This document shows, piece by piece, positions 1 to 39,852 of a DNA stretch of 39,852 nucleotides. Positions within the stretch are counted from its first letter, which is position 1; each line of letters starts with the position of its first letter. The stretch spans positions 1-39,852 of IMG/VR virus record IMGVR_UViG_3300048065_000682. One strand, written 5' to 3'. This stretch comes from a virus. The translations under genes were made by a program, and so were the position numbers. Under the pieces are notes generated by a model, which did no database searches, was not told the origin of the DNA, and worked only from the letters and a program-made list of their open reading frames with translations.

Positions 1-332
1 GACAAACCAAAGTGTTTCTTCCATTTCTGAGGCGTCACTAAATGCATTGGCGTTTTGTTAGCCGCCACACATGCAAGCAAAGATCCGTAGCCCATGCCAA
101 ATCTAAACGTGGCAACTGACGATTGATTTGGCCTCGATGCCACTTGCTCAATCACAGCCATCCTTAACTTTGCCTCTGGCTCAAAAATATGCAGGAGCGT
201 GTATATATCAACTTCCGTTTTATTTTTAGAGTTAAGCACTGTCGGCATATCCACGACATCCAGATCTTTAGTGCGTGTGCAATAATGTGCAATCGCTCCA
301 GAGAAACCACAATCAACACCAATGACTATCAT
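1..332 (-). CDS. RuvC-like Holliday junction resolvase, 3' part cut by window edge
   Basis: This is the N-terminal part of the same resolvase found complete at 36512-36982. It begins with ATG at 332 and runs off the left edge of the window. The shared DNA aligns without gaps at an offset of 36650, and most differences look silent. The start overlaps the stop of the upstream ribbon-helix-helix gene (ATGA). The conserved N-terminal acidic site is present. The C-terminal acidic motif seen in the complete copy lies outside the window here, so truncation is due to the window and not to decay. Confidence 0.85.
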   Translation of the reverse strand, partial: MIVIGVDCGFSGAIAHYCTRTKDLDVVDMPTVLNSKNKTEVDIYTLLHIFEPEAKLRMAVIEQVASRPNQSSVATFRFGMGYGSLLACVAANKTPMHLVTPQKWKKHFGL

Positions 333-520
333 TCCACAACCTGTATATTCTCAGCGTCAGATGTCTCTGGCTTGGCAACTTCAACGCCAGCTTTAGACGC
401 CGCCATATAAGATGCCATCCTGACAAACGCATTGAAGCTCAGAGCCGATTTGTTGGCGGCCTCTGCGACGGCTTCATATTGCGCCTCGCTAAAATTAATT
501 AATACTCTCTTATCAACCAT
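329..520 (-). CDS. Small ribbon-helix-helix (Arc/CopG/MobC-like) protein, left copy
   Basis: A 63-residue protein. A short basic beta-strand (KRVLINFS) is followed by two helices separated by a turn (about residues 12-41, ending FVRMASYMAA), which is the fold plan of ribbon-helix-helix DNA-binding proteins. Such proteins are dimeric repressors or relaxosome accessory proteins. The C-terminal 20 residues are acidic and variable. It differs from the copy at 36979-37170 at only two residues. A good ribosome site (GGAGAAAAG) precedes the ATG, and the stop overlaps the resolvase start. It could autoregulate the divergent promoters, but no target is shown. Confidence 0.75.
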   Translation of the reverse strand: MVDKRVLINFSEAQYEAVAEAANKSALSFNAFVRMASYMAASKAGVEVAKPETSDAENIQVVE

Positions 521-545
521 TTCTTTTCTCCTAGGTTTAATTATC

Positions 546-575
546 TAAGCACTGCGACCTGAGCCACAGTGCTTA
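546..575. other. Intergenic hairpin, left copy
   Basis: Perfect 9-bp inverted repeat TAAGCACTG / CAGTGCTTA with a 12-base loop, between the ribbon-helix-helix gene and the gene upstream of it. It is also present at 37196-37225. There is no clear T-run on either side, so an attenuator or RNA-processing site is as likely as a terminator. Confidence 0.6.
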
Positions 576-589
576 TTAATTATACCTTA

Positions 590-787
590 TTAATATTTAG
601 CATCAAATTGAGCATATTTCTGATACATTTTTTCCCAGCCCCATTTTACAAATTTAGCCATGTCATCGCCTTCCTCGATGCCATGATTGAACGCAAATTG
701 TTTTAACGCTGATGTAAATTCCATTTCTGGAAATTCAACAACCAAATCTAATGCATCCTCAAAAGCCTTTTCCCAAGTTGTATTCAT
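590..787 (-). CDS. Hypothetical 65-residue acidic protein
   Basis: Short acidic protein with several Trp and aromatic residues (WEKAFEDALDLV near the start, WGWEKMYQKY near residues 49-58), probably all-helical. No family recognised. Its leader, with AAACACAAAC and then GAGGAG before the ATG, is nearly identical to the leader of the unrelated 131-residue gene at 37230-37625. It therefore occupies the equivalent place in the leftward operon and was probably swapped as a cassette. Confidence 0.65.
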   Translation of the reverse strand: MNTTWEKAFEDALDLVVEFPEMEFTSALKQFAFNHGIEEGDDMAKFVKWGWEKMYQKYAQFDAKY

Positions 788-814
788 AACAAATCTCCTC
801 GTTTGTGTTTGTAA

Positions 815-1117
815 TTAATAGTAATCGTAATCGTTATAAGCATCATTTTCATATTCAAGATCATCTTGGCATATCTCAGCATTGCCACTCCAACATAGAT
901 GCTTAGTCAATTCTTTTACCCTATCCCTCAAAGCTATGTCTGCAAGAATAATTGCATTATTTAAATAACCACCTCTATCTAATTCTTTGTTACGAGTTTT
1001 AATCCAGAGAGCTAAAAGTTCAGTTGCTTCATCAATTCTTTTTTGCACTCCACTTTCCAAAGCCCAATCAGAAAACTTTAATAATGTTTTTTCATCATAA
1101 ATTTCTTGTGTATACAT
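815..1117 (-). CDS. Hypothetical 100-residue protein, first gene of left-end leftward operon
   Basis: I place the start at 1117 because ATGGAGAGTACAAA, a ribosome-site leader shared with other early genes here, lies directly upstream; an in-frame start at 1150 would lie inside that leader. The product is helical and mixed-charge with an acidic, Tyr-rich tail (NDYDYY). No family recognised. It is the first gene after the leftward promoter at 1153-1180 and has no counterpart at the right end. An early host-interaction role is possible from position only. Confidence 0.65.
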   Translation of the reverse strand: MYTQEIYDEKTLLKFSDWALESGVQKRIDEATELLALWIKTRNKELDRGGYLNNAIILADIALRDRVKELTKHLCWSGNAEICQDDLEYENDAYNDYDYY

Positions 1118-1152
1118 TTTGTACTCTCCATTAAGTTTGTGTTTATACAAGT

Positions 1153-1180
1153 ATAATAGCAGTTATTCAGATGGCGTCAA
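1153..1180 (-). promoter_or_regulatory. Leftward sigma70-type promoter, left copy
   Basis: On the minus strand TTGACG (1180-1175) and TATTAT (1158-1153) are 16 bp apart. The spacer CATCTGAATAACTG nearly equals the spacer of the opposing promoter (CATCTGAATACCTG), so the two promoters form an imperfect inverted repeat. The shared spacer may be an operator. Confidence 0.72.
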
Positions 1181-1189
1181 CAACATAAT

Positions 1190-1207
1190 GATATATAAAA
1201 GATATAT
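1190..1207. promoter_or_regulatory. Tandem GATATAT repeat between divergent promoters, left copy
   Basis: GATATAT occurs at 1190-1196 and 1201-1207, 11 bp apart (one helical turn). The AT-rich element sits just upstream of both -35 boxes. It fits either a binding site for a regulator or an UP-element-like site for an RNA polymerase alpha C-terminal domain. The same pair with the same spacing recurs at 37694-37711 and 38364-38381. Confidence 0.6.
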
Positions 1208-1214
1208 TTTCCGC

Positions 1215-1242
1215 TTGACCGCATCTGAATACCTGTTATATT
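1215..1242 (+). promoter_or_regulatory. Rightward sigma70-type promoter, left copy
   Basis: TTGACC (1215-1220), a 16-bp spacer and TATATT (1237-1242), followed by the leader ATAAACACAAACACAA and the ribosome site ATGGAGAATACAAA of the gene at 1279. Equivalent promoters occur at 37719-37746 and 38389-38416. Confidence 0.78.
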
Positions 1243-1278
1243 GAGTGAATAAACACAAACACAAATGGAGAATACAAA

Positions 1279-1875
1279 ATGACTACTTACAAAACAAGAA
1301 CAGCTCAAGATTATATCACACTTGCACTAAGCTGTATTCAAGATGATCAAACTTTTGCGGCTAAGTCTCACAAGAAAGACGCACTAAGTTTATTAAATCG
1401 CGCTTATGAAGTTATTACAGAAAAAAACTTTAGCTTTGGACGTGAAAATTTATCACGCGAAGATTTTTTCTCAATTCCATTTGATTTACATTTGATCCGT
1501 GAAAAGCATAAAAGATTATTTGATGCATCTTTTCATAAAGATTTGCAGGAGCTAGTTGAGCTTCGCGTTTTGCTTAAACTGCTTGATGTAGTTAAGCCAG
1601 CACCTAAGACTGAGCGCATCACTGCAAAGCAGGCTGAGGTTACAAAAACTGTGATGGATCTTATTGATCGCCGTATGGCTCAGTATCATGAGGCTGTTGA
1701 AATGGGGCGCTTGTTTGGCGGCTTGAACGTGAGCGTTACGCCACACCAAGTTACTAATGAGCATAACACTACGTTCACTAGATGCTTTTATTTTTTAGAA
1801 GGCAAGTTCACTCCATTGCAAGTTATAATGGCGGCAATGGATACTTTAGCCGCAGAAAAGAAAGCAAGATCATGA
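1279..1875 (+). CDS. Hypothetical 198-residue protein, first gene of left-end rightward operon
   Basis: Helical, mixed-charge protein with no family I recognise. Residues about 100-150 contain a basic, coiled segment (TERITAKQAEVTKTVMDL). The start is fixed by the conserved leader ATGGAGAATACAAA. The stop overlaps the next start (ATGA). At the right end this place is taken by three different genes (37783-38999), so it belongs to the variable early cassette. Confidence 0.7.
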   Translation: MTTYKTRTAQDYITLALSCIQDDQTFAAKSHKKDALSLLNRAYEVITEKNFSFGRENLSREDFFSIPFDLHLIREKHKRLFDASFHKDLQELVELRVLLKLLDVVKPAPKTERITAKQAEVTKTVMDLIDRRMAQYHEAVEMGRLFGGLNVSVTPHQVTNEHNTTFTRCFYFLEGKFTPLQVIMAAMDTLAAEKKARS

Positions 1876-1982
1876 ACATCACAATGATCAAAGATGGAGT
1901 GGCTATGGCATTATTTGCCCTAGCCTGCATTCACCTTCCAGAGATTATAGTTTTTCTGGATACAATTATTAACGCAAACTAA
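1872..1982 (+). CDS. Small hydrophobic 36-residue protein, left copy
   Basis: Begins MNITMIKDGVAMALFALA and carries one hydrophobic segment (about residues 9-33), a likely membrane helix. The ATG overlaps the upstream stop (ATGA). The copy at 39013-39132 differs at a few residues and has a different tail. Conservation of the reading frame between copies that differ elsewhere supports a real gene. Function unknown. Confidence 0.65.
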   Translation: MNITMIKDGVAMALFALACIHLPEIIVFLDTIINAN

Positions 1983-1992
1983 GGAATATAAA

Positions 1993-2178
1993 ATGCAAAC
2001 TTTTAAATTTGAAATTACCATTGATGTTGGTGAAGATATGTGTGGCGACAGTGAAGGCCAGCCCACACTTCACGAAACTAAAGAGTGGTTAAAAAATATG
2101 ATCTCTTGGCAACATCCACATGATGCCAGAAGGTATTTTAATGACGTCAAAATTGTATCTAAAAGGGGGGTGAAGTGA
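1993..2178 (+). CDS. Hypothetical 61-residue protein, left copy
   Basis: Starts MQTFKFEITIDVGEDM, with an acidic beta-like N-terminus and a helical second half (KEWLKNMISWQHPHDARRYF). It is identical to the right-end protein (39134-39313) up to residue 57, after which the two end differently. No known family. RBS-like AAGGAATATAAA lies upstream. The stop shares a base with the next start (TGATG). Confidence 0.65.
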   Translation: MQTFKFEITIDVGEDMCGDSEGQPTLHETKEWLKNMISWQHPHDARRYFNDVKIVSKRGVK

Positions 2179-2465
2179 TGTCAGAGGACATCAAGCGCAA
2201 GTGGTGGATTTTCCACCACGAAAACCCCACCATTTATGAGCTATTCAAGCGCTTTACTTTTGAGGTAATTGAGAGAGGCCATGACCAGTATAGCAGTAAA
2301 GCAATCTTTGAGCGCATTAGGTGGCATACCGATATTGAAACAAATGGCGAAGAGTTTAAAATGAGTAATAACTATACGCCATATTATGCACGTTTTTTTA
2401 TGCATGAGCATCCTCAATATCAAGGATTTTTTAGAACACAAATATTAACTGAAGAAAGAGAATAA
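2178..2465 (+). CDS. 95-residue phage protein, paralogue of the gene at 33985-34275
   Basis: I use the ATG at 2178, coupled to the upstream stop as TGATG; the GTG at 2175 is less likely. It shares the pattern NPxIYExFK near the N-terminus, then YSxKxIFxRxRW, then YARxFMxExPxxxGFFxT with the protein at 33985-34275. This pattern recurs in phages as a small family of unknown function. The gene is missing from the right-end copy of the region, so it is a recent gain or loss in this cassette. Confidence 0.72.
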   Translation: MSEDIKRKWWIFHHENPTIYELFKRFTFEVIERGHDQYSSKAIFERIRWHTDIETNGEEFKMSNNYTPYYARFFMHEHPQYQGFFRTQILTEERE

Positions 2466-2466
2466 A

Positions 2467-3315
2467 ATGCAAACATTAATTATTAAATCAATACACGAGC
2501 ATGGCTTTGGTTTTGCTTTTACCAAAGATGAGCATGACCAAGTGTTTCTGCCTAAAAAACTTTTAGCAGATTTTGAGCATCTGGATTGGTTAGAACCAGC
2601 AGATGAGGTGTATGCAAAAATTATACCAAATTATAAAGATAAATTAGATGGTGGTTGTAAGTACGTTTGTACTTACATTACTATTGATAGGTTTGATCCA
2701 GTTTATGTTGCCAGTGTCAGGGAAGCATTAGGTGAAGTTATAGAGACAATTTGCCCAACAAAAACACCATTTGTACCATCGTTTGAGCCAACAGTTGATA
2801 AGGGCAATTTATTAAGTGAATTAAATAATCGATTAAACGAATTAGTAATTGAAAATAAAGTTTACACAGATCGCATTGAAACTATATCTGCAATTAATAA
2901 TTTAGATGAATTAAGCCTTAAAATATTTTTATTTCATAATCTTGAAAGCTCAGATCCATATTTATATAAATTATTATTTAGCACGATTGAGCAAGGTTTT
3001 TTTTCAAATCGCGTCTGGGGATGCTTAAATCATATGGTCGGCAATAGTTTATTTTCATATGGCAAGCCAGAAAAAAATAAAAGAATTCGTAACCCTATAT
3101 ATTTTTATGATGTAATATTAAGATCCGATAAATTTTTCTTAAATTTTCCAAACTTTGGTAAAAAATCATTAACCGATCTTAAATCATATTTGAGTGAATT
3201 TGGTTTACAGCTAAATACAGATTTAAAAGATATTAAATATGAAACATTAAAATCTTTTAATTTGCATAACAAAAAGAACGATTACTTATTTGTTAAAACG
3301 AGGGAAATAGTATGA
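2467..3315 (+). CDS. Candidate phage transcription factor: S1/cold-shock-like domain plus RNA-polymerase alpha-CTD-like domain
   Basis: A 282-residue protein. Residues about 5-70 (HGFGFAFTKDEHDQVFLP, then LEPADEVYAKIIPNY) resemble an OB-fold of the cold-shock/S1 type. Residues 110-160 look helical and linker-like. Residues about 179-254 resemble the C-terminal domain of the RNA polymerase alpha subunit: RVWGCLNHMV fits the first helix (R..NCL...), and FLNFPNFGKKSLTDLKSYL with GLQLN fits the helix-hairpin-helix motif (LL..PN.GKKSL.EIK..L, GL.LG). In bacteria this domain binds AT-rich UP elements and activators. The gene is noticeably more AT-rich than the structural genes and overlaps the next gene by 4 bases. 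Domain calls are by eye; the role is inference. Confidence 0.72.
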   Translation: MQTLIIKSIHEHGFGFAFTKDEHDQVFLPKKLLADFEHLDWLEPADEVYAKIIPNYKDKLDGGCKYVCTYITIDRFDPVYVASVREALGEVIETICPTKTPFVPSFEPTVDKGNLLSELNNRLNELVIENKVYTDRIETISAINNLDELSLKIFLFHNLESSDPYLYKLLFSTIEQGFFSNRVWGCLNHMVGNSLFSYGKPEKNKRIRNPIYFYDVILRSDKFFLNFPNFGKKSLTDLKSYLSEFGLQLNTDLKDIKYETLKSFNLHNKKNDYLFVKTREIV

Positions 3316-3536
3316 CATTCTACACAACGCTCGTTTTAACATATGTCATTGGCGGCGTGGAGCTACAGGATACCACGCTGTATCGCAGTGCGCGTGAATG
3401 TGGTGACGCATTGCCAGCAGTTTACAAGCCATATGAGAAAATGGATAGCATGGCTCAGTGCATTGAAACAAGCTACATCAGCTCGTCATTTATTGTACCA
3501 AAGCTCAGACCGAAAGGATTAACCAATGGCAAGTAA
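3312..3536 (+). CDS. Hypothetical 74-residue protein with hydrophobic N-terminus
   Basis: Begins MTFYTTLVLTYVIGGVEL, a short hydrophobic stretch too brief to be sure of a signal peptide. Two Cys (in ECGDALPAVY and AQCIETSY) could pair, suggesting an exported or membrane-associated protein. The tail is basic and Pro-rich. The start overlaps the previous stop (ATGA) and the end overlaps the next gene by 11 bases, so translation is probably coupled. Function unknown. Confidence 0.65.
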   Translation: MTFYTTLVLTYVIGGVELQDTTLYRSARECGDALPAVYKPYEKMDSMAQCIETSYISSSFIVPKLRPKGLTNGK

Positions 3537-3750
3537 ATATTACCCATGCCCAGAATGCGATGGCGCAGGCGAAACACTATTCGAAAAAGATTATAATATC
3601 TTTCATGAAACTTACCTGTACGAAAAGGCTGATTGCAAAAATTGCGCTGGCACTGGATTGATTTTGCCAGAGATGCCAGAAAAACCCAACAGACTGATCC
3701 CAGCTCTTAATGATCAGGGAAAATTTGTGAGACGTGAAAATGATGAATGA
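3526..3750 (+). CDS. DnaJ-type zinc-ribbon protein, 74 residues
   Basis: Contains two CxxCxGxG motifs, CPECDGAG (residues 8-15) and CKNCAGTG (about 37-44), the four-cysteine zinc-binding arrangement of the DnaJ central domain. There is no J domain, so this is a stand-alone zinc ribbon. Phages often carry such small proteins with unknown partners. RBS-like AAAGGATTAACC precedes the ATG. Confidence 0.75.
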   Translation: MASKYYPCPECDGAGETLFEKDYNIFHETYLYEKADCKNCAGTGLILPEMPEKPNRLIPALNDQGKFVRRENDE

Positions 3751-3761
3751 GGAGAACGTAA

Positions 3762-3959
3762 ATGAAAACCAAAGATTGTTATCAAGCTGTGACGAGAGCA
3801 ATCAAGCTCAACGAAAATGTGCAGGAAGATCTGAAGGGCAAGGAAGTGAGAACGAGGAGCTTCTATCTGTTCATGATGCAGGAGCAACTTGCAATATTGA
3901 ACAACCTCGAACACCAGCTTTCGCTTATGCGTCGAAAGAACAAGTCGCCCAAGCAATGA
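3762..3959 (+). CDS. Hypothetical 65-residue helical protein
   Basis: Preceded by an excellent ribosome site (GAGGAGAACGTAA before ATG). The product is mostly helical with a heptad-like second half (LAILNNLEHQLSLMRRK) and a basic tail, so it could dimerise by coiled coil. It ends ATGA, overlapping the next gene. A longer open frame starting at GTG 3734 covers this gene in another frame, but the strong ribosome site favours this reading. Confidence 0.68.
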   Translation: MKTKDCYQAVTRAIKLNENVQEDLKGKEVRTRSFYLFMMQEQLAILNNLEHQLSLMRRKNKSPKQ

Positions 3960-4375
3960 GGGATGAGCCTACACATAAATATGAGATTATGTATTCCCAC
4001 TTGCTATACAATTTTGAGAAAGAGCAGATCAAACGTGGCCTCAGAAATAACATCAATAAAACTTTTGAGAGGCCACGCCAAATCACAGTTAACAAGGCGT
4101 CACATAGAAACTTTGTAAGTGACAATGATTTAAGAAAGATCAAACCTATACCACAAAAAAAATACGACGCGATATTAAAGCATATGAAGAGTTATAAAAG
4201 ATACACGACGACTATGATAGCTCTCAGCAGTTCCATTGGCGTATCTGATATAGCGTGGACGCTTAACGTAATGTATCGTCAAGGATTAGTTGATCGTGCT
4301 TACGAGAAAACCACACCGATCATAGGCAACGCTGGAGCTAAGTCTCTGCGTTACGTTTACTTTAAGAAAAGATAA
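3956..4375 (+). CDS. Winged-helix DNA-binding protein, last gene of rightward operon
   Basis: A 139-residue basic protein. Residues about 70-135 form a helix-turn-helix with a possible wing (ILKHMKSYKRYTTTMIAL, GVSDIAWTLNVMYRQGLVDR, then a strand rich in basic residues), as in winged-helix regulators. I choose the ATG at 3956, coupled to the preceding stop as ATGA, over an in-frame GTG at 3734 that would overlap the whole preceding gene. As the last gene before a terminator and facing the late operon, it could be a repressor or late regulator; that is inference. Confidence 0.65.
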   Translation: MRDEPTHKYEIMYSHLLYNFEKEQIKRGLRNNINKTFERPRQITVNKASHRNFVSDNDLRKIKPIPQKKYDAILKHMKSYKRYTTTMIALSSSIGVSDIAWTLNVMYRQGLVDRAYEKTTPIIGNAGAKSLRYVYFKKR

Positions 4376-33984: not shown

Positions 33985-34275
33985 TTACGAGTGATATGAA
34001 TTTACTCGATTACGTGTTTTAAAAAAGCCTTCATGCTCTGGATTTTCGTCCATGAATTTACGAGCATAATGGCTAATCCATCCATCATCAATTTTATGAT
34101 CGCCAGTTCCTGACATCATTGTTTCCCAACGCACCCTATGAAATATACATTTTGCTGAATAGTATTCACGCTTCTCAGTTACAATCAATGCAAAGTGTTT
34201 AAACTGCTCGTAAATATGTGGGTTTTGCATATCGTATATTTTAAAATTTTCTTTTGACCATTTTCCGTTTTTCAT
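33985..34275 (-). CDS. 96-residue phage protein, paralogue of the gene at 2178-2465
   Basis: Shares NPxIYExFK, YSxKxIFxRxRW, YARxFMxExP and GFFxT with the protein at 2178-2465. Basic and aromatic-rich, with no Cys pattern. Preceded by a strong hairpin (34296-34331) and the ribosome site AAAGGAGAATATT. It lies between the SSB-like and primase genes, so a replication role is plausible. Function unknown. Confidence 0.72.
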   Translation of the reverse strand: MKNGKWSKENFKIYDMQNPHIYEQFKHFALIVTEKREYYSAKCIFHRVRWETMMSGTGDHKIDDGWISHYARKFMDENPEHEGFFKTRNRVNSYHS

Positions 34276-35019: not shown

Positions 35020-35685
35020 CTACGCTGGGATTTTTGTATCTGTTGGCTTCAATGTTTTAAGTAATATTTCTGGTTTCATATCTTGTATTTCATCCAGAGC
35101 TTCTAAATAAGTACATCCTGACAACCTTTTAAAAAGCACTTTATAAGTAACAATACCTTGCGATGTTTTTATGTATCTTGCGCCAGTTTCTATTTCTTCA
35201 ATTAATTTTTCTTTAATTACATTTTTTAATCGTTTCTTCCAGTTCTCTAAATTTACGCCGTTAATACTTGCATTCAGTAAATTCAACCTCGTAAATTCTT
35301 TTGACAAACACCTGTAATTGTTTATTTCATCTGAATATAAATCTTCAAAGTAATTTTTACCAAAATTATTCAATACCAATAAATCGATAAATAAATTTGC
35401 TTTATCTGTAAGCGTAATTATTCTTTGGCGTTTATCAATTTGGCAAATGTGTGTGTTTAAAAAATTTAGTTTTTTTAAATAATTTATTGATCTATGTATT
35501 TTAGCTTGTGATTTACCTAATGACTTTTGCAATAAACTGCTATTTACATCATCTTTATTTATTTTTTTAATAAACAAAAGTATTTCAATAATATCTATTA
35601 AAACGTACTGATCTTTAACTTTCAATTCGCTTTTGCATATTTTAATAAAATTTAATGCATTATTTATCTGTATGTGTTTTAACAT
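35020..35685 (-). CDS. AT-rich winged-helix protein
   Basis: 221 residues. Residues about 47-93 form a MarR-like winged helix (SLLQKSLGKSQAKIHRSINY, then a wing with DKRQRIITLTDKA). The C-terminal half is helical and basic. The gene is much more AT-rich than its neighbours, suggesting recent transfer or relaxed composition. It could be a transcription regulator or, given its place in the replication block, an initiator-type DNA-binding protein. No known family is assigned. Confidence 0.65.
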   Translation of the reverse strand: MLKHIQINNALNFIKICKSELKVKDQYVLIDIIEILLFIKKINKDDVNSSLLQKSLGKSQAKIHRSINYLKKLNFLNTHICQIDKRQRIITLTDKANLFIDLLVLNNFGKNYFEDLYSDEINNYRCLSKEFTRLNLLNASINGVNLENWKKRLKNVIKEKLIEEIETGARYIKTSQGIVTYKVLFKRLSGCTYLEALDEIQDMKPEILLKTLKPTDTKIPA

Positions 35686-37693: not shown

Positions 37694-37711
37694 GATATAT
37701 AAAAGATATAT
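37694..37711. promoter_or_regulatory. Tandem GATATAT repeat, right copy
   Basis: GATATAT at 37694-37700 and 37705-37711, 11 bp apart, between the divergent -35 boxes. Unchanged from the left copy. Confidence 0.6.
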
Positions 37712-37718
37712 TTTCCGC

Positions 37719-37746
37719 TTGACCGCATCTGAATACCTGATATATT
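37719..37746 (+). promoter_or_regulatory. Rightward sigma70-type promoter, right copy
   Basis: TTGACC (37719-37724), 16 bp, TATATT (37741-37746), followed by the shared early leader and ATGGAGAATACAAA before the gene at 37783. Confidence 0.78.
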
Positions 37747-38363: not shown

Positions 38364-38381
38364 GATATATAAATGATATAT
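38364..38381. promoter_or_regulatory. Third tandem GATATAT repeat
   Basis: GATATAT at 38364-38370 and 38375-38381, 11 bp apart, just upstream of the promoter at 38389-38416. It has the same geometry as at the divergent promoters, although the flanking DNA differs. Confidence 0.6.
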
Positions 38382-38388
38382 AAAGTGC

Positions 38389-38416
38389 TTGACCCTATCT
38401 CATAATCTGTTAGATT
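38389..38416 (+). promoter_or_regulatory. Second rightward promoter of right end
   Basis: TTGACC (38389-38394), 16 bp, TAGATT (38411-38416), then ATAAACACAAATGGAGAATA leading to the gene at 38451. It is a rearranged relative of the divergent promoters without an obvious leftward partner. Confidence 0.68.
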
Positions 38417-39317: not shown

Positions 39318-39852
39318 ATGCAAACATTAATTATTAAATCAATACATGAGCATGGCTTTGGTTTTGCTTTTACCAAAGATGAGCATGACCAAGTGTTTCT
39401 GCCTAAAAAACTTTTAGCAGATTTTAAGCATTTGGATTGGTTAGAACCAGCAGATGAGGTGTATGCAAAAATTATACCAAATTATAAAGATAAATTAGAT
39501 GGTGGGTGCAAGTACGTTTGCACTTACATTACTATTGATAGATTTGATCCAGTTTATATTGCCAGTGTCAGGGAAAAATTAGGTGAAGTTATAGAGACAA
39601 TTTCCCCAACGAAAACACCATTTGTTCCATCGTTTGAGCCAACAGTTGATAAGGGCGATTTATTAAGTGAATTAAATAATCGATTAAACAAATTAGTAAT
39701 TGATAATAAAGTTTACACAGATCGTATTGAAACTATATCTGCAATTAATAATTTAGATGAATTAAGCCTTAAAATATTTTTATTTCATAATCTTGAAAGC
39801 TCAGATCCATATTTATATAAATTATTATTTAGCACGATTGAGCAAGGTTTTT
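39318..39852 (+). CDS. S1/cold-shock plus alpha-CTD-like protein, right copy, cut by window edge
   Basis: Codes for the first 178 residues of the protein at 2467-3315 with about ten substitutions (for example GEVIETISP for GEVIETICP), then leaves the window just before the alpha-CTD-like domain. It shows the gene is intact and under constraint in a second variant: most of the 17 nucleotide changes spare the OB-like motif. Confidence 0.85.
   Translation, partial: MQTLIIKSIHEHGFGFAFTKDEHDQVFLPKKLLADFKHLDWLEPADEVYAKIIPNYKDKLDGGCKYVCTYITIDRFDPVYIASVREKLGEVIETISPTKTPFVPSFEPTVDKGDLLSELNNRLNKLVIDNKVYTDRIETISAINNLDELSLKIFLFHNLESSDPYLYKLLFSTIEQGF

Follow-up and report, generated by a model that had tools for sequence, protein, structure and literature searches.

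This locus raises the question of whether a phage protein that carries a tail resembling the C-terminal domain of the RNA polymerase α subunit (α-CTD) is truly related to RpoA, and what such a detached domain might do for the phage. The protein, from a marine phage, has two parts: a cold-shock-like nucleic-acid-binding domain with an OB fold and the α-CTD-type tail. It is encoded at positions 2467..3315 (+) of the window, the 39,852-nucleotide stretch of DNA analysed here, and comprises 282 residues from an ATG start. The gene sits in a tightly packed, rightward row in which the upstream ORF ends at 2465 and the next ORF overlaps it by ATGA at 3312. This row (1279-4375) starts downstream of a σ70-like promoter, and the structural genes are read in the other direction. 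Among relatives that are 91-98% identical, both end domains of the protein are under purifying selection, while the linker between them is looser and tolerates an in-frame deletion of 11 residues. For the OB part and the CTD, dN falls far short of dS, and less so for the linker; the few changes available make these estimates rough. The ORF is a real gene.

The gene is AT-rich, in keeping with the initial annotation, which had called it more AT-rich than the late genes: its G+C content is 28.9%, falling to 26.7% in the C-terminal part, whereas the window as a whole has 41.7% and the neighbouring genes have 38-45%. A second very AT-rich gene (35020-35685, -; 25.2% G+C) has a weak winged-helix match (SarA/Rot, E=0.012) and is possibly another exchanged regulator. 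Two paralogous 96-residue proteins of the phrog_13625 type, about 42% identical, are encoded on opposite arms of the genome, at 2175-2465 and 33985-34275 (-). Close to the OB-αCTD gene, positions 3526-3750 encode a small CxxC protein with a DnaJ zinc-finger-like pattern, a relative of which also adjoins the OB-winged-helix gene of contig L087.

Near-identical homologues of the OB-αCTD protein occur in 18 viral contigs, and full-length homologues are found at 34% identity. The tail of the contig (36651-39852) repeats its head (1-3001) at approximately 95% identity, with indels and differing genes in between: the assembly wraps round and combines two variants of the phage, and the genome is probably about 36.7-36.9 kb long. 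The repeat holds a second copy of the gene (39318..39851, +), which is 96% identical over residues 1-178 and is cut by the contig end before the α-CTD is reached. The claim that both variants possess the domain therefore does not follow from the window itself; it is supported by contig L008, which shares the variant residues of the second copy in its N-terminal part and in which the α-CTD domain is present. The terminase is shared with Sinorhizobium phage φM5 and groundwater phages at 54-61%, a similarity that hints, and no more, at an alphaproteobacterial host. Two scans of genome contigs returned no relative of the OB family, and so identified neither a host nor a prophage.

Residues 1-74 (2467..2688, +) form the OB/cold-shock-like domain, where conservation within the family is highest. 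They contain RNP-like motifs, HGFGFAF and QVFLPKK, that were recognised by eye. The OB strand order is present in AlphaFold2 models of both the window protein and its relative L053, and Foldseek matched this part to the cold-shock proteins 2lxj and 5xv9 with TM-scores, by target, of 0.73-0.76. The proposed resemblance of the N-terminus to cold-shock/S1 domains thus stands at the level of fold. At the level of sequence families it is weaker: the match to Pfam OB_RNB has E=0.037 and 14.2 bits against a cut-off of 24, the sister-clade protein in L087 matches S1CSD-TOTE-2 at 3.7e-5, below the cut-off, and a profile of the OB part had no match by sequence in the PDB. The domain accordingly shares strand order, the GFGF and VFLP motifs and structural neighbours with the cold-shock domain, OB_RNB and S1CSD-TOTE-2, but differs from them in sequence. 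It is followed by a variable, mostly helical linker (residues 75-170; 2689..2976, +) marked by low pLDDT, indels and relaxed selection.

The C-terminal domain is homologous to the RpoA α-CTD. Its first helix (residues 179-191; 3001..3039, +), modelled at 181-191, holds Arg182, the counterpart of E. coli R265. An insertion of approximately 18 residues relative to RpoA follows (192-209; 3040..3093, +); it is shorter in most relatives, and pLDDT falls below 50 at residues 192-211 in the model of the window protein. The remainder of the domain (210-254; 3094..3228, +) includes the helix-hairpin-helix (HhH) motif PNFGKKSL and is delimited by matches to PF03118 (215-244), to RpoA (208-256) and by Foldseek. 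On its own, the window protein matches PF03118 over residues 215-244 with E=0.0022 and 18.1 bits, short of the curated cut-off of 23.8 bits, so that the profile search proposed in the initial annotation succeeds only when the family is brought in: L053, one of the viral relatives at 34% identity (L051-L059 and L067), scores 28.3 bits. In these relatives the stretch SLSVRTYNLIRNE..IYNYDLLSYTPAELLRIPNLGR has the RpoA pattern, and L053 is matched by the RpoA models of NCBIfam (3.3e-12), although solely in its C-terminal part. A phmmer search of the PDB with the window protein gave as top match the RpoA α-CTD 9zum (E=5e-5, residues 208-256), a Caulobacter α-CTD bound to AT-rich DNA. With a nine-member family profile, solved RpoA α-CTDs were retrieved at E=6.5e-11, and every match better than E=0.1 was an RpoA chain.

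Structure prediction agrees with these searches. The AlphaFold2 model of the window protein has low confidence (pLDDT 57), whereas that of L053 reaches 82 overall and about 92 in the α-CTD domain; the input alignment of the latter included three other phage α-CTD stretches and no RpoA. Foldseek placed RNA polymerase chains at ranks 2-3 for the window-protein model, and returned RpoA almost throughout for L053, with 9zum superposing at a TM-score of 0.78, an rmsd of 1.7 Å and 39% identity. As no Foldseek E-value was below 0.001, the fold serves as backing for the sequence searches and not as independent proof. The α-CTD helix-hairpin-helix fold is present in the L053 model, and the low-confidence window model has the same kind of matches; conservation within the family takes in the proposed domain. 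The family profile, L053 and Foldseek together uphold the initial assignment of an OB/cold-shock-like domain joined to an α-CTD. That the resemblance reflects a generic HhH or chance, with no kinship to RpoA, is very improbable: the subthreshold Pfam score of the window protein alone would fit such a reading, but it was rejected on the profile statistics, with only RpoA chains better than E=0.1, and is contradicted by the above-threshold score of L053 and by the fold searches. The protein is likewise not a member of RpoA proper, as the N-terminal dimerisation and assembly domain is replaced by an OB fold and RpoA models match the C-terminal part only.

The sequence, the four-helix HhH fold and the R265, N294 and G296 contacts are shared with RpoA. 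The minor-groove determinant of the E. coli α-CTD consists of R265, N268, N294, G296, K298 and S299. Every member of the OB-αCTD family has the equivalents of R265, N294 and G296, while the N268 position is Gly in the window protein. K298 and S299 are the same in the window protein and in L051 but changed in L053, L056 and L057; variation at these positions across the family (T/A or S in some members) could make DNA affinity lower than that of RpoA. The segment RVWGCLNHMV, assigned early on to the α-CTD, aligns as expected, with R182, C186 and L187 corresponding to R265, C269 and L270; the R182 equivalence comes from MAFFT and the model, as the HMM alignment starts at residue 209, after the 18-residue insert. 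In other phage α-CTDs, R265 is kept in 49 of 49 aligned rows. The residues that touch σ region 4 in E. coli, D259 and E261, have fared differently: these positions are Arg and Ser in four aligned relatives and are not acidic in the window protein (MAFFT), unlike other phage α-CTDs, in which E261 is mostly kept. Loss of the σ contacts and, in the window protein, the 18-residue insert between helices distinguish the domain from the α-CTD of RpoA. DNA binding by the domain is plausible.

Related phages with similar flanking genes retain the OB part but give it different C-terminal partners. Within the near clade, neighbouring genes are mostly 70-100% identical, whereas the OB-αCTD protein is 34% identical overall and about 69% in its OB part. 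The OB domain is followed by an α-CTD in the clade of the window, stands alone in L060-L066, and is joined to a winged-helix-like domain (phrog MarR match, E=2.5e-4) in L087 and L165-L193, which make up a sister clade at greater distance. Of the OB-only contigs, L063 has the following conserved gene immediately after the OB gene; in the others a 94-residue ORF intervenes and retains a piece of the linker. Because the OB domain is constant while its partner is an α-CTD, absent or a winged helix, the α-CTD tail probably acts as a module for DNA targeting that can be exchanged for others. This natural set allows the contribution of the module to be compared directly. One sister-clade phage, L172, encodes a separate 153-residue protein with an α-CTD above the Pfam cut-off (867-1328, -) in addition to its OB-winged-helix protein; the 12 other sister-clade records show no α-CTD protein.

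It had been proposed that the detached α-CTD draws host RNA polymerase to AT-rich GATATAT promoters of the phage. A putative promoter, recognised by consensus match, does lie upstream of the gene row (1190..1242, +) and comprises GATATATAAAAGATATAT, TTGACC (1215-1220), a 16-nt spacer and TATATT (1237-1242); a putative TTGACG/TATTAT pair faces the opposite direction at 1180-1153. Sequence matches identify a second GATATAT-TTGACC copy at 37694..37724 (+) and a third, two-sided copy at 38364..38394 (+). All three window blocks read ATGATATATAAA(A/T)GATATAT, 7 nt, TTGACC. The block lies between divergent -35-like boxes, is nearly palindromic in some copies and recurs in most near relatives for which the upstream region was recovered. 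However, GATATATAAA(A/T)GATATAT is equally present upstream of TTGACC in the OB-only relatives (L060-L066), whose partial contigs, of up to 29 kb, gave no PF03118 match; the winged-helix clade yielded no convincing copy. As relatives from which no α-CTD was recovered keep the element, it belongs to the phage group and not to the α-CTD, and it could serve as an UP element for the α-CTD of the host polymerase.

These observations weigh against a dedicated activator that binds GATATAT through its α-CTD and recruits the host holoenzyme, a reading that now appears rather unlikely. It would suit this reading that the AT-rich element immediately precedes TTGACC in the three copies of the window and in most relatives with a recovered upstream region, and that the DNA contacts are largely kept, but the element persists without the α-CTD on OB-only contigs, the host α-CTD alone could use it, the σ-contact residues are lost and no part of the protein is a known polymerase binder. 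The recruitment proposal is consequently not sustained. The domain might instead act as a decoy, occupying UP elements or the activators that contact the host α-CTD and so lowering host transcription. In its favour, the domain is an α-CTD by homology and fold without the RpoA assembly domain, and several phage take-over factors act on the α-CTD of the host; yet the OB part is left without a role, and we consider this explanation unlikely as well. A replication or recombination protein acting, like RuvA, on junctions of single- and double-stranded DNA has a lower probability again. The combination of OB and HhH, the appearance of RuvA low in both Foldseek lists, and the α-CTD modules found beside MazG and DUF3310 in other phages speak for this role, but the sequence similarity is specifically to RpoA, including the R265 motif before the hairpin, and the OB partner in sister phages is a winged helix.

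The reading to which we give about an even chance is that the OB-αCTD protein is an early phage regulator that binds nucleic acids through two modules. The constant OB/cold-shock-like module would probably bind single-stranded RNA or DNA. The exchangeable HhH module would probably bind the minor groove of AT-rich duplexes through R182, N229, G231 and their neighbours, as the polymerase α-CTD does. The protein would then most likely occupy AT-rich parts of promoters, whether of the phage or of the host, and alter their transcription by either assisting the α-CTD of the host polymerase or taking its place. This early two-module regulator is favoured by the homology and fold of its α-CTD, with invariant equivalents of R265, N294 and G296; by a gene slot that swaps its DNA-binding partner while near-clade neighbours stay mostly 70-100% identical; by a gene row that runs from a σ70-like promoter, opposite to the structural genes; and by the fusion of several other phage α-CTDs to HTH or sigma-r4 domains. 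Against it stand the subthreshold Pfam score and low pLDDT of the window protein and a promoter element that does not track the α-CTD, while the fusion of some phage α-CTDs to MazG or DUF3310 is no sign of a role in transcription. A DNA-targeting early protein, probably related to transcription, is most likely.

Detached α-CTDs are not confined to this family. A single scan with phage α-CTD stretches found α-CTD-type domains at 62 viral loci, although some of the contigs may be host sequence wrongly classed as viral. From these loci, 47 reading frames were extracted; they are mostly of about 100-250 residues and have no RpoA N-terminal part by inspection. Pfam analysis of ten examples identified fusions to HTH_17, HTH_23, sigma-r4 and DUF3310. 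The gut phage record L100 (MT835636.1) combines HTH_17, sigma-70 region 4 and an α-CTD in one protein of approximately 332 residues, and HTH-α-CTD fusions occur in L122 and L141. These resemble the OB-αCTD protein in placing an α-CTD outside RpoA beside nucleic-acid-binding domains, but their partners are different and include no OB fold. A cultured phage, Ruegeria phage vB_RpoS-V16, encodes in gp23 (AWY09459.1; L088:2923-3789) an α-CTD (PF03118, 41.4 bits) annotated as an HTH-domain protein or pyrophosphatase; unlike the OB-αCTD protein, it is fused to a MazG-like pyrophosphatase. When named phages and plasmids were searched by tblastn, neither the window protein nor L053 retrieved an OB-αCTD architecture from an isolated phage. 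Most matches were to rpoA of hosts, located on chromids or in phage records with contamination. The gut records MT837710, MT837142, MT835508 and MT839982 contain RpoA sequences and no detached domains. A match on the 16.5-kb plasmid NZ_CP150953.1 of Yoonia sp. BS5-3 (L021:3179-4348) is a full-length RpoA of 389 residues with a C-terminal extension, absent from the plasmid gene table. No description of phage α-CTD domains was found in the open papers searched, which is weak evidence of novelty because most subscription journals lie outside that literature.

The finding thus generalises: α-CTD-type domains that are not part of RpoA, most of them in small proteins, occur on dozens of phage contigs. 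In bacteria, the α-CTD is one of the main sites at which transcription activators and UP elements dock. As initially supposed, the phage appears to have no T7-type RNA polymerase of its own: the longest ORF in the window encodes 692 residues, too few for such an enzyme, and it is on this length that the absence rests, a PF00940 search having matched neither the window nor its controls. Tentatively, and with less confidence than in the regulator itself, we suggest that phages have repeatedly taken the host α-CTD as a free-standing, plug-in targeting module, which in this clade is coupled with a cold-shock-like domain and would direct the host polymerase at AT-rich promoters or drive it off them, and that such proteins may form an unrecognised class of take-over factor. 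For a phage that lacks a polymerase, a virus-borne, detached α-CTD would offer a simple route to redirecting host transcription.
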